From Candidatus Latescibacterota bacterium (lineage in GTDB: Bacteria > Krumholzibacteriota > Krumholzibacteriia > LZORAL124-64-63), in contig JAUSBL010000122.1 in assembly GCA_030658975.1 (NCBI GenBank), positions 1-64,000 on the forward strand: DNA of 64,000 bases, given 5' to 3'. The position numbers and the translations under genes are program-made. The notes beneath the pieces are model-generated. The model saw nothing but the letters and a program-made list of their open reading frames with translations, was not told where the DNA came from and made no database searches. Of this stretch, positions 1 to 37,278 are shown piece by piece. Every line of letters begins with the position of its first letter. Position 1 is the stretch's first letter.

Positions 1-88
1 GGAAGTTGCGCGCGTAGCCGCGCGACACGTTCACGGTCTCGCCGACGTCGCCGAGGTTGTCGATCTTCTTGATCAGGATCACGTCCAT
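1..88 (-). CDS. rplI: 50S ribosomal protein L9, N-terminal fragment
   Basis: The first 29 codons of a minus-strand gene that runs off the left edge. The start is the ATG at 88. The translation begins [19 protein letters not shown] and continues to a GYARNF segment, which is the conserved N-terminal beta-strand and loop of L9, a 23S rRNA-binding protein of the large subunit. It is the last visible member of an rpsF-rpsR-rplI ribosomal cluster. The ssb gene often found between rpsF and rpsR in other bacteria is absent. The rest of the gene is outside the window. Confidence 0.9.
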
Positions 89-2641: not shown

Positions 2642-3574
2642 TCAGACGAAGAGCTTGCTGACGGTCTTCTCCAGGTGGATCCGCTCGATGGCGTCGGCCA
2701 GCAGGCCGGAGAGGTCCAGGACCTTGACCTTCGGGCACTCGGCCTGCCGGTCGAAGGGCAGGGTGTTGCTGACCACGACTTCCGAGACGCTGGAAGCGGC
2801 CAGGCGCTCGAGGGCCTGCCCCGAGAAGATCGGGTGCGTGGCGCAGGCCGTGACCGAGGCGGCGCCGTTCTGCACGCAGACGTCGGCCGCCTGGGTGATG
2901 GTGCCCGCGGTGTCGATCATGTCGTCGAAGATGATGACGTCCATCCCGCGCACGTCGCCGATGAAGTTCATGACCACCGCCTCGTTGGGGCGCGGCCGGC
3001 GCTTGTCGATGACCGACAGCGGCGCCTCGAGGCGCTTGGCGAAGGAGCGGGCCATCTTGATGCTGCCGACGTCGGGGGCCACCACGGCGAGGTTCTCGCG
3101 CGAGCGGTCCTTGAAGTGCTCGAGCAGGACCGGCGCCGAATAGAGATGGTCCAGCGGGATGTCGAAGAAGCCCTGGATCTGGGGGGCGTGCAGGTCGATG
3201 GTCAGCACGCGGTCGGCCCCCGCGGTGGTGATCAGGTTGGCCATCAGGCGGGCCCCGATCGGCACCCGCGGCTGGTCCTTGCGGTCCTGGCGCGCGTACC
3301 CGAAGTAGGGCAGCACCGCGGTCACCCGCCGGCAGGAGGCCCGCCGCACCGCGTCGATGAGCAGCAGCAGTTCCATCATGTTCTCGGCCGGCGGCTGCGT
3401 CGGCTGGATGATGAACACGTCCGTGCCGCGGATGTTCTCCTTGATCTTGATGTTGATCTCTCCGTCGGAGAAGCGCGCGACCTCGACGCTGAGCAGGGAC
3501 TTCTCGAGATGGGCCGCGATCTGCTCCCCCATCGCGCGGTGGGCGTTGCCGCTGATCAGCACGAGTTCGTTCAT
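2642..3574 (-). CDS. prs: Ribose-phosphate pyrophosphokinase
   Basis: 310 residues, typical of bacterial PRPP synthetase. The start is ATG at 3574 (MNELVLISGNAHRAMG) with AAAGGACT upstream. Visible motifs are the FSDGEINIKIKENIRG segment, the ATP/Mg region YFGYARQDRKDQPR, and the PRPP-binding loop VIIFDDMIDTAGT. It makes 5-phosphoribosyl diphosphate for nucleotide, His, Trp and NAD synthesis. PRPP is also the donor for the decaprenyl-phosphate phosphoribosyltransferase encoded at 5861-6763. It is transcribed with rplY and pth. Confidence 0.97.
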   Translation of the reverse strand: MNELVLISGNAHRAMGEQIAAHLEKSLLSVEVARFSDGEINIKIKENIRGTDVFIIQPTQPPAENMMELLLLIDAVRRASCRRVTAVLPYFGYARQDRKDQPRVPIGARLMANLITTAGADRVLTIDLHAPQIQGFFDIPLDHLYSAPVLLEHFKDRSRENLAVVAPDVGSIKMARSFAKRLEAPLSVIDKRRPRPNEAVVMNFIGDVRGMDVIIFDDMIDTAGTITQAADVCVQNGAASVTACATHPIFSGQALERLAASSVSEVVVSNTLPFDRQAECPKVKVLDLSGLLADAIERIHLEKTVSKLFV

Positions 3575-14305: not shown

Positions 14306-14611
14306 CTACATCCCCGGCAGCTTCAGGCCGCCGGTCACGGCGCCCATCTCCTTCTCCACCATCTCGTCGGTCCGGCGCACCGCCTCGTTGACCGCGCTGA
14401 TGACCAGATCCTGCAGGAACTCCACGTCCTGCGGGTCGACGGTCTCGGGCCGGATGGTCAGCGAGACGAGCTGGTGGCGGCCGTTCATCACGGCGACGAC
14501 CTGGCCGCCGGCGACCTCGGCCGTGACCTCGCGCAGGGCGAGCTGCTCCTGGGTCTCCTGCATCTGCTTCTGCATCTGCTGGGCCTGCTTCATCAGGGCG
14601 CGCATGTCCAT
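14306..14611 (-). CDS. YbaB/EbfC family nucleoid-associated protein
   Basis: 101 residues with the coiled N-terminal helix MDMRALMKQAQQMQKQMQ, the strand segment GGQVVAVMNGRHQLVSLTI, and the DLVISAVNEAVRRTDEMVEK helix that ends GGLKLPGM. YbaB/EbfC dimers bind DNA as tweezers-shaped proteins. The dnaX-ybaB-recR order is one of the best conserved bacterial gene strings and supports the call. Confidence 0.95.
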   Translation of the reverse strand: MDMRALMKQAQQMQKQMQETQEQLALREVTAEVAGGQVVAVMNGRHQLVSLTIRPETVDPQDVEFLQDLVISAVNEAVRRTDEMVEKEMGAVTGGLKLPGM

Positions 14612-33356: not shown

Positions 33357-34868
33357 TCAGGCCAGCACGGCGAGTTGCTCGCGGCGGAAGGAGAGGGCCT
33401 CGACCACGTCGTCGCGGTTCGCGCGGGTCCGGCCGCCGAGCGCGGCCAGGGTGCGCGCGACGCCTGCGCAGCGCATCGACGAGCGCACGGTCATCCCCAG
33501 CGACGCGCCGGCCGTCTCGAGCAGGGCCGCCGCCGAGGCGTCCAACGAACGGCGCGCCTCCGCGAGCGACGTCGGGCGCGCGCGGGAACGACCCGCCAGG
33601 CGCGCGTGGCCCGCCTCGGCGTCCGCGACCGCCAGTTCCCAGATCCTGCCCGGATCCCCGATCACGTCGCCGCGCAGGGGATCCTCGGGTTCCTCCAGTT
33701 CGGCGAAAAGGTCGATGCGGTCGAGCAGGGGGCCCGACAGCCGGCTGCGGTGGGCCAGACGCAGCCGCTCCGAACACCGGCACTCCCGGCGCCGGCTGCC
33801 GTGCCAGCCGCAGCGGCAGGGATTCATCGCCGCGAGGAGTTGGACGTTCGCCGGCCAGAACCTGACCCCGGCGCCGCGGACGACGGCGATGCGCCCCTCC
33901 TCCAGCGGCTCGCGCAACGCGTCCAGGACCCCGGGCGAGAATTCCGACAGCTCGTCCAGGAAGAGGATGCCGTGGTGGGCCAGCGTGACCTCGCCGGGGC
34001 GCAGCGACGCGCCGCCCCCGAGCAGCCCGGCGCGGGTCGCCGTGTGGTGGGGGGACCGGAAAGGCCGCCGCAGGTCCAACTCCGGCGACGAGAGCAGCCC
34101 GGCGGCGCCATGGATCCGCGCGACCTCGAGGGCTTCCGGCGCGGCCAGAGCCGGCTGCAGCGTCCCCACCACGCGCGAGAGCTGGGTCTTGCCCGATCCC
34201 GGCGGTCCCACCAGCAACAGGTCGTGGCGCCCCGCCGCCGCCAGCACGGCCAGCCGGCGGGCGCGGGCAGGCGCATGGGCCAGGAACGCCAGCAGGGACG
34301 GGGACGGCTCCCGCCGGCACGGCGCAGGCGAGGCAGGCACAATCGTCTCGAGGCAGCCCCTGCCCGCCCGCCAGCGCACCACATCGGCCAGCGTCGATGC
34401 CGCCAGGATGGTCACCTCCGGCACCAGAGCCGCCTCCCGGGCCTGGCCGAGCGGCACCACGAACAGGCGCCGGCCCGTCGCGGCGGCCGCCGTCACGATC
34501 GCGAGCAGGCCCCTGACCGGGCGCAAGGCCCCGTCCAGGGACAACTCCCCGAGCAGCACCGCGTCGCCGCGCGCGCCGGGCTCCGCCCGCTCCGTGACGC
34601 CGCAGACGCCCACGGCGATGGCCAGGTCCACCGATGGCCCCCTCTTCTCGACATCCGCCGGCGTGAGGTTCACCACGACCCGGCCCTTGGGCCAGGCCAG
34701 GCCGCTGTTGCGCAGGGCCGACAGGACGCGCTCGCGGCTCTCGCGCACGGCGGTGGACGGCAGGCCGACGAGTTGGAAGGACGGCAGTCCCCGCCCGGCG
34801 TCCACCTCCACGACCACCTCGAAACCGTCGATGCCGTCGAGCGAGCCGCTGCAGATACGCTGGATCAT
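33357..34868 (-). CDS. comM: ComM/YifB family AAA+ ATPase (Mg-chelatase-like)
   Basis: 503 residues from ATG 34868 with GGGGAGGG upstream. The N-terminal Lon-protease-like fold segment (VEVDAGRGLPSFQLVGLPST) is followed by the ATPase core. Walker A is LLVGPPGSGKTQLSR, then FRSPHHTATRAGLLGGG, Walker B HHGILFLDELSEF, and AMNPCRCGWHG with extra Cys residues. The C-terminal helical lid has MRCAGVARTLAALGG. ComM is a hexameric helicase that extends heteroduplex DNA in natural transformation. Nothing else of competence is adjacent. Confidence 0.92.
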   Translation of the reverse strand: MIQRICSGSLDGIDGFEVVVEVDAGRGLPSFQLVGLPSTAVRESRERVLSALRNSGLAWPKGRVVVNLTPADVEKRGPSVDLAIAVGVCGVTERAEPGARGDAVLLGELSLDGALRPVRGLLAIVTAAAATGRRLFVVPLGQAREAALVPEVTILAASTLADVVRWRAGRGCLETIVPASPAPCRREPSPSLLAFLAHAPARARRLAVLAAAGRHDLLLVGPPGSGKTQLSRVVGTLQPALAAPEALEVARIHGAAGLLSSPELDLRRPFRSPHHTATRAGLLGGGASLRPGEVTLAHHGILFLDELSEFSPGVLDALREPLEEGRIAVVRGAGVRFWPANVQLLAAMNPCRCGWHGSRRRECRCSERLRLAHRSRLSGPLLDRIDLFAELEEPEDPLRGDVIGDPGRIWELAVADAEAGHARLAGRSRARPTSLAEARRSLDASAAALLETAGASLGMTVRSSMRCAGVARTLAALGGRTRANRDDVVEALSFRREQLAVLA

Positions 34869-34982
34869 CACACCCTCCCCGCCGCTCCCCCAGCGAATTG
34901 CGGGCCGTCGCACCCGCGCGGTGCGGAACCGGCGTGTCGGCCTTGCCCGGACTCCGCCTGCGGGCGCGGACGCGACGACGCT

Positions 34983-35090: not shown

Positions 35091-35798
35091 CTAGCGGAAC
35101 AGCGTCTTGACCTGTCCCCAGCTGGCGTCCTCGTTGGGCGTCGGGTCATACGGGAAAATGACCTTCACGCCGAACACGTGGTGGTAGCCGGCCGGGACCG
35201 TGAAGAACGGGAACCAGGGCTCGGCGATGCCGGTGCCGGCGAAGGTCCAGTCGGTCAGCGGATAGTCCATCGCGATCAGCGTGCCCAGCTCGCTGCCGCC
35301 GTTCATGTCGCAGGTGCCGATGCCGGCGCCCGAGAACTGGCCGAAACCGAAGGGATCGTTCAGGTCCATCGTCCAGCCGTCGTCCACGGCCGCCTGCAGC
35401 AGCATCGTGCCGTCGGTGAACGTGGCGGGGACGGCGTAGTTGGCCGCCGTGCCGCTGGCGATGGCGTTCTCGTAGATCTGCAGCGTGCCGCCGTTGAACA
35501 CGTAGTTCTTCGTCTGGGCAACGCCGTTGAAGACGTACGAGTCGACGACCATCCCAGTGATGGCGACGGTGTACTGGTTGGTGGCGAAATCGACAGGGAT
35601 CGGCGTGGGCATGCTGACCGGGGGATTCGCGATCCCGTAGACGGTCATCACGGCACCGGCCTGGTCGGGGCCGGCAGCGTACGCGGCGTAGCCCTCGAAG
35701 GTGAACTCGACCTGTCCCAGAGCGGGGACAGCCGCACACAGGGCCAGAACCAGCGTCATCCCGATCATCCGGCTCCGGTTCAACTGCATTTTCATCAT
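35091..35798 (-). CDS. Exported beta-rich protein with WGxxKxxYR-type tail
   Basis: 235 residues with a signal peptide (MIGMTLVLALCAAVPALGQ) and a beta-rich body of Gly, Tyr, Phe and Asn repeats (FTFEGYAAYAAGPDQAGAVM, YVFNGGTLQIYENA). No catalytic motif is visible. It ends NEDASWGQVKTLFR, a tail shared with six other exported proteins in the window (Phe for Tyr here). It resembles the next gene upstream in overall plan (GGT-IY, late GY). It is 19 bases downstream of that gene, so they form a two-gene operon ending in the hairpin at 35027-35054. Function unknown. Confidence 0.8.
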   Translation of the reverse strand: MMKMQLNRSRMIGMTLVLALCAAVPALGQVEFTFEGYAAYAAGPDQAGAVMTVYGIANPPVSMPTPIPVDFATNQYTVAITGMVVDSYVFNGVAQTKNYVFNGGTLQIYENAIASGTAANYAVPATFTDGTMLLQAAVDDGWTMDLNDPFGFGQFSGAGIGTCDMNGGSELGTLIAMDYPLTDWTFAGTGIAEPWFPFFTVPAGYHHVFGVKVIFPYDPTPNEDASWGQVKTLFR

Positions 35799-36513: not shown

Positions 36514-36854
36514 GGTGTCCCCCGATTCGTCTGCGGCCGCGTCGGCGCAACCTTGATGATGCGGACGATCCTATTGGACTGCGCTCGGTCGGAGCGAAAT
36601 TCCGGACGCCGTCCGATTTGGACGGCACCGTCGCGCCGGGGCGGTTCGAGCACTCAAGCACCGCGATTCCATGAAACCGCGACCCCTCCACTGTACAGCC
36701 GACCGCGTTCAGAATGCAATGGCGGAATAGGAAAAAAATGCGGTATTCGCTCATCCCGTGTTAACGATAGTTCAAAAATACGGAGGCCCCATCAAGGAGC
36801 CTCCGTGAAATCGGACTGGAATCGTGCGGACGGCGTCCCGGGGGCTCCCGCCGG
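36514..36854. other. 341-base intergenic region between the tail-protein pair and the histone gene
   Basis: No gene is seen. The end next to the histone gene contains its terminator (36774-36806). The rest is relatively A+T-rich near 36720-36780 and should contain the promoter of the gene at 36513, but I cannot pick convincing -35 and -10 elements. Confidence 0.5.
36774..36806 (-). terminator. Terminator of the histone gene
   Basis: On the minus strand ACGGAGGC and GCCTCCGT pair around an 11-base loop, directly followed by ATTTTTG. It is 49 bases after the histone-fold stop codon. Confidence 0.8.
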
Positions 36855-37016
36855 CTACAGATCCTGGGGGCGGACCGTCTTGCGGCCGTTGGCGATGGCG
36901 CGCTGCTCGGCCTTCTTGATCAGCTCGTTGACCTTGGCGTCGAGGGCGTCGTAGAACTCGCCGGAAACGTTGCACTGCGTGACGGCTTCCTTCGTCTTGC
37001 TCTTGCTGATGATCAT
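36855..37016 (-). CDS. Bacterial histone-fold protein
   Basis: 53 residues from ATG 37016 (MIISKSKTKEAVTQCN), with AGGAGA 13 bases upstream. The long central helix FYDALDAKVNELIKKAEQRA is followed by the histone L2 loop and short helix ANGRKTVRPQDL, the hallmark R-x-T-V-x-x-x-D pattern of archaeal and bacterial histones. It is shorter than archaeal histones (about 66), ending right after the DL of helix 3. Such proteins bind and bend or coat DNA. A leader hairpin GGGCGAC-GGC-GTCGCCC lies at about 37053-37069. It is transcribed divergently from the dipeptidase and has its own terminator. Confidence 0.8.
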   Translation of the reverse strand: MIISKSKTKEAVTQCNVSGEFYDALDAKVNELIKKAEQRAIANGRKTVRPQDL

Positions 37017-37278
37017 GTTGGCCTCGATTCTCCTGAAGGGTGAAAACTCGGGCGACGGCGTCGCCCGGCGAAGGGATCGCATCGGGCAAGGTGGGATCTT
37101 GGCGAATCCGGCCCACGGTGTCAACGGGATTCGGTCTGCGGGATTCGCCGCGCGCGCTTCCGCGCCCGCGGGCGGGACACGGCGCGATCGCGGCACACAA
37201 TGCCCTCGACAGCCGCAGGCGTCAAGGCTAAGTTTCCCCGACCTACTGCGCCACGCCACGCTCCCGCCAGGAGGAACC

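Follow-up and report, generated by a model that had tools for sequence, protein, structure and literature searches.

We show that positions 36855–37016 of the window, the stretch of 64,000 nucleotides analysed here, hold a genuine gene for a bacterial histone, present as one copy in a 3.2 Mb assembly that is ~92% complete. Read on the minus strand, it encodes a product of 53 residues (MIISKSKTKEAVTQCNVSGEFYDALDAKVNELIKKAEQRAIANGRKTVRPQDL*), which is a new branch of an already known protein family and not a new kind of protein. The best explanation of our data, to which we assign a probability of about 85%, is that the product belongs to the face-to-face (FtF) alpha3 histones, small proteins that pack DNA irrespective of its sequence, and works beside HU and YbaB. 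A preliminary description of this DNA had placed a histone-fold protein at these coordinates, correctly as it turns out; it gave no strand, and the plus-strand reading yields no protein of interest.

Table 1. Positions of the histone gene, its flanking elements and context genes in the window, and landmarks within the protein.
Feature	Position	Strand	Description
Histone gene	36855..37016	minus (37016 to 36855)	53 codons, FtF-type alpha3 histone
Counterpart of ancestral start	37017..37025	minus	GAGGCCAAC, now GAG-GCC-AAC; relatives ATG-GCC-GAC (Met-Ala-Asp)
Leader hairpin	37049..37067	minus	CGGGCGACG-C-CGTCGCCCG; 9-bp arms; genus-specific
Promoter-like element	37196..37225	minus	TTGACGCCTGCGGCTGTCGAGGGCATTGTG; -35 TTGAC, 17-nt spacer, -10-like CATTGT
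Intrinsic terminator	36780..36806	minus	ACGGAGGCTCC-TTGAT-GGGGCCTCCGT then ATTTTT; 11-bp stem and T run
YifB/ComM-like Mg-chelatase-domain ATPase	33357..34913	minus	Conserved downstream neighbour across the family; context, outside the mechanism
YbaB/EbfC nucleoid protein	14306..14611	minus	PF02575, E=1e-31; context
Helices (AlphaFold monomer)	residues 5-11; 19-42; ~50-52		alpha1; alpha2; short alpha3
RxTxxxxD motif	R45-T47-D52
FtF tetramer residues	R39 and N43

A spurious short ORF or a pseudogene remnant could be suspected from the mere 53 codons, the many long chance ORFs of this GC-rich genome and the disappearance of the ancestral start codon. We give that reading practically no chance, as it is refuted by conservation: the protein is 98–100% identical in three other genomes of the window's genus, the gene differs from that at locus L003 by five synonymous changes and one amino-acid change (dN/dS ~0.05 within the genus, a value that rests on this single amino-acid change), and homologues occur in 48 of the 80 genomes of the window's phylum (relatives labelled Candidatus Krumholzibacteriota). 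The gene also carries its own promoter element and terminator, which likewise speaks against a chance ORF.

The protein had been called very short, which our comparison does not bear out. Relatives have 56 residues, begin Met-Ala-Asp-(Met/Leu)-Ile-Ile behind a strong ribosome-binding site, and exceed the window's protein by only three residues. Within the window's genus ATG-GCC-GAC has become GAG-GCC-AAC or GAG-GCC-GCC, so translation begins at the former fourth codon, a start that locus L020 has lost too. The length of 53 residues thus reflects the loss of three residues with the ancestral start and not a peculiar protein; at the other end, alpha3 histones normally terminate at the same point. 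The GAGG of the former start, 5 nt ahead of the present ATG, may serve as ribosome-binding site. In the relatives L004–L028 a conserved GGGAGGA(T/C)CCC precedes the start codon, with the ribosome-binding site between GGG and CCC and a possible tiny hairpin. Longer forms were rejected: the conserved promoter element sits downstream of the start codon that a 141-residue form would need, no ribosome-binding site precedes the ATG at codon -22 that would give 75 residues, and relatives begin at Met-Ala-Asp, just three codons upstream.

The histone fold proposed in the preliminary description is borne out by sequence searches and by structural comparison. Among solved structures the archaeal FtF histone HTkC was the top match (E=4e-8, phmmer), followed by HBb and HLp, and a profile built from 28 relatives retrieved HTkC at E=5e-18. 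Structure prediction, which had been suggested for the dimer, was made for the monomer and gave a confident AlphaFold model (pLDDT 90.6) with two helices and one final turn in the histone arrangement. Foldseek aligned this model to HTkC with a TM score of 0.92 (rmsd 1.0 Å, 46% identity), to HLp with 0.90–0.91 and to HBb with 0.85–0.90, nucleosomal histones ranking after these three with much lower scores; HTkC therefore ranks first in phmmer, profile and Foldseek searches alike. Histone models of Pfam and NCBIfam matched only below their cut-offs (DUF1931, the best Pfam model, E=5e-4; PF00808, E=0.02; NF043032, E=0.03).

Sequence and modelling together support a place in the FtF subclass of alpha3 histones, with archaeal HTkC a nearer relative than HBb of Bdellovibrio. 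The residues that define the FtF profile are K16, R48, N52, R54, T56 and D61, with R48 paired to the C-terminal carboxyl group of the opposing dimer (PMC11390915). They correspond to K7, R39, N43, R45, T47 and D52 of the window's protein, where all six are present; R39, N43, R45, T47, D52 and L53 are invariant across the 28 relatives, and the chain stops straight after D52, at L53, with which the short alpha3 ends. The protein is a singlet histone fold in which alpha2 is shortened and alpha3 has only 3–4 residues, and its nearest solved relative is itself an FtF histone. Our filing under FtF follows from the presence of every defining feature tested, phylogenetic grouping excepted: in a tree of 51 sequences over 56 columns long branches meet, and groupings have no resolution at that length. 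Hallmarks of other classes are absent. The alpha3 of ~10 residues that gives nucleosomal archaeal histones their four-helix-bundle interface is missing, as the chain ends after RPQDL; the two fused folds of DUF1931 pseudodimers do not fit 53 residues that cover model positions 20–53 only; and there is no N-terminal domain that could hold the ZZ zinc finger of ZZ histones. The window's protein also has no basic N-terminal tail of the sort that bacterial FtF histones often carry.

A bacterial dimer histone of the HBb type would also be an alpha3 histone, bacterial and tailless, with a common RKTxxxxD motif and a fold close to the model by TM score. This reading is quite improbable, given that HBb scores clearly lower than HTkC (21 versus 36 bits with phmmer, 33 versus 68 with the profile) and that R48 and N52, described as absent from bacterial dimers, both have counterparts here, which are invariant.

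For the preferred FtF histone, the tetramer and the wrapping of DNA are predicted by analogy with HTkC and HLp. Two chains would pair in a head-to-tail handshake dimer across their alpha2 helices, and R39, N43, R45 and the C-terminus of the truncated alpha3 would join two such dimers into a ring. Its positively charged rim may be wrapped by about 60 bp of DNA, as proposed for HLp, with candidate contacts at S6, K7, K9 and loop L2 (T47, R49). The HLp tetramer residues R49, N53 and R55 map onto R39, N43 and R45. The five HLp residues that contribute most DNA-binding energy are R59, K21, K15, S14 and K17; four of the five are present here (R49, K7, S6, K9), the fifth being T13 in the window's protein and K in most relatives.

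The gene would be expressed as a stand-alone unit, from a dedicated promoter to its own terminator. A terminator had been claimed and is indeed present, and nearly every relative in the family has one at the same place. Upstream lies a promoter-like element of the pattern TTGAC-N9-TGTCGAG-NNN-ATTGTG (TTGACA-N17-GATTGTG), overlapped by an imperfect inverted repeat, CTTGACg...cTGTCGAG (CTTGACAG-N6-CTGTCGAG), whose second arm reads CCTGCCAAG in one subclade. Seven genomes, drawn from five genera, each have their sole exact match at the histone locus, the few other matches having three mismatches each, and none is expected by chance in the window. A promoter pattern scanner with a stricter -10 box made no call at the element. 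Since the motif was spotted by eye in an alignment of these same loci, the evidence for it is conservation and not consensus; it resembles a promoter of the sigma-70 type (TTGACA, 17-nt spacer, GATTGT), and the single exact site per genome suggests a single-target regulator or autoregulation. The leader hairpin of the preliminary description exists as well, yet it is confined to the genus, and the whole leader does not fold convincingly better than shuffled sequences (z -1.7). We rejected a regulatory RNA in the leader on these two grounds and for want of an Rfam match.

The palindrome also bears on a second alternative, a local regulator or partner with a histone fold, like eukaryotic TAFs, that perhaps acts on its own promoter and is not a global DNA organiser. 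Three HU genes and YbaB are already present, ~40% of the phylum has no detectable copy, and the inverted repeat within the histone promoter is a single site, all of which would suit such a role. We nevertheless consider it unlikely: the residues for DNA contact are conserved, there is no fused partner gene nor, given the terminator, a co-transcribed one, the tested FtF relative binds DNA without sequence specificity, and nothing ties the palindrome to the histone.

Our data instead favour the DNA-packing histone as an accessory chromatin protein that would act alongside HU and YbaB. Two DNA-packing proteins had been said to coexist; YbaB is indeed encoded in the window, but the count was understated, as three HU/IHF-family genes are encoded in the genome as well. 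At least two such genes were found in 57 of 58 genomes searched. This coexistence argues that the histone is probably an accessory and not the sole DNA organiser, and does not imply a leading role in chromatin. Codon usage and gene anatomy lend modest support to high expression: the codon adaptation relative to ribosomal protein genes is 0.83 (ribosomal range 0.62–0.85), a value reached by 3% of simulations of the same protein with the codon usage of the window's genes and exceeded by YbaB, a non-ribosomal gene of the window.

Within the phylum the histone occurs in nearly all genomes of the family to which the window belongs, where it is maintained as a separately transcribed single-copy gene. 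Two other families have it in every genome and a third in most, with few or none elsewhere. A scan of genomes from 84,980 species, which needs short exact peptides and so would miss distant bacterial relatives, found 27 close bacterial loci, most of them under the label Candidatus Krumholzibacteriota or Krumholzibacteriia, followed by archaeal matches in Halegenticoccus (58–60% identity), a DPANN archaeon (53%) and Lokiarchaeota (38–42%). Relatives on haloarchaeal plasmids are ~52–54% identical. A plasmid origin was rejected, all 78 plasmid matches lying below 60% identity and being, among the matches listed, haloarchaeal; so was a phage origin, since 50,697 phage records gave no match and IMG/VR gave two distant ones. 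Archaeal transfer could not be argued from phylogeny with a tree of such poor resolution. A viral-collection contig (L107, IMGVR_UViG_3300009506_000024) encodes at 3001–3165 a histone 49% identical to that of the window. In one related family (L099, L101, L102, L103) we observed a second, divergent histone that ends in HDF plus a few residues, with a basic Lys/Ala-rich stretch in frame ahead of it, and in two further families the main copy has basic tails. Loci L002 and L003 come from public MAGs titled Gemmatimonas and Fibrobacter, yet their 98–100% identical histones and near-identical flanks match the window's genus, and these records are likely mislabelled.

A conserved neighbourhood of a divergent M20 peptidase, the histone, the YifB/ComM-like ATPase and an outer-membrane barrel protein recurs throughout the family and speaks for vertical descent at this level. 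The gene had been placed amid genes for exported proteins; this holds downstream, where two secreted-looking proteins follow, and not upstream, where the neighbour is the divergent M20 peptidase. Six secreted-looking proteins of the window have a common C-terminus, W[GS].[VI]K.[LI][YF]R before the stop codon (for example SWGEVKNLYR or DSWGAVKTLYR), at 35091, 35818, 39370, 40232 and 41074 on the minus strand and 43333 on the plus strand. Three of the six contain Lamin Tail Domains, the same ends recur on neighbouring proteins in L002 and L003, and the reversed window has none; the motif resembles a tag for sorting or processing at the C-terminus.

A broader and tentative proposal, which we regard as possible though doubtful, is that Krumholzibacteriota keep by vertical descent an FtF lineage closest to archaeal histones, in a mixed HU-plus-histone chromatin where a single-target regulator, perhaps the histone, would set histone dose through one dedicated palindromic promoter that occurs at no other site of the genome.

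Detailed studies exist of only two bacterial histones, HBb and HLp (PMC12701072). Our study adds a phylum for which the literature searched holds no mention of histones, although supplementary tables were outside the reach of that search and may list them. HTkC of Thermococcus kodakarensis (PDB 9F2C; PMC11390915) has the same fold, VSxEFYDAL start of alpha2, GRKT loop and truncated alpha3; it is archaeal, has a few extra residues between alpha1 and alpha2 and carries E at the usual FtF N52 (AEGRKT versus ANGRKT). Haloarchaeal FtF-like histones (for example Halegenticoccus soli L029/L030 and plasmid matches H1–H20), annotated as DUF1931 or DNA-binding protein, resemble the window's protein in their MADLIV start, NVSGEFYDALD and NGRKTVQPRDL end, and their 52–60% identity over the whole protein bears on archaeal transfer versus an older origin; they differ in being archaeal, in the four copies of the Halegenticoccus genome and in having no such promoter element as the window's histone. 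DUF1931 pseudodimers of the Aquifex AQ_328 type, whose model came just under the cut-off, comprise two fused histone folds (138 model positions) and not a singlet. HBb/Bd0055 of Bdellovibrio (PDB 8FVX, 8CMP, 9EZZ; PMC10627809, PMC11317129) has the alpha3 histone fold in common, at 34–35% identity, but lacks the R48/N52 tetramer residues and bends DNA as a dimer. HLp of Leptospira perolatii (PDB 9QT0–9QT2; PMC12701072) is bacterial, with the same tetramer residues, RD clamp and short alpha3, at 37% identity and with an N-terminal extension. In contrast to HLp, the detailed FtF case, which comes from bacteria without HU, the tailless FtF histone described here stands beside three HU/IHF genes and would make it possible to study how the two kinds of protein divide one bacterial chromosome between them.
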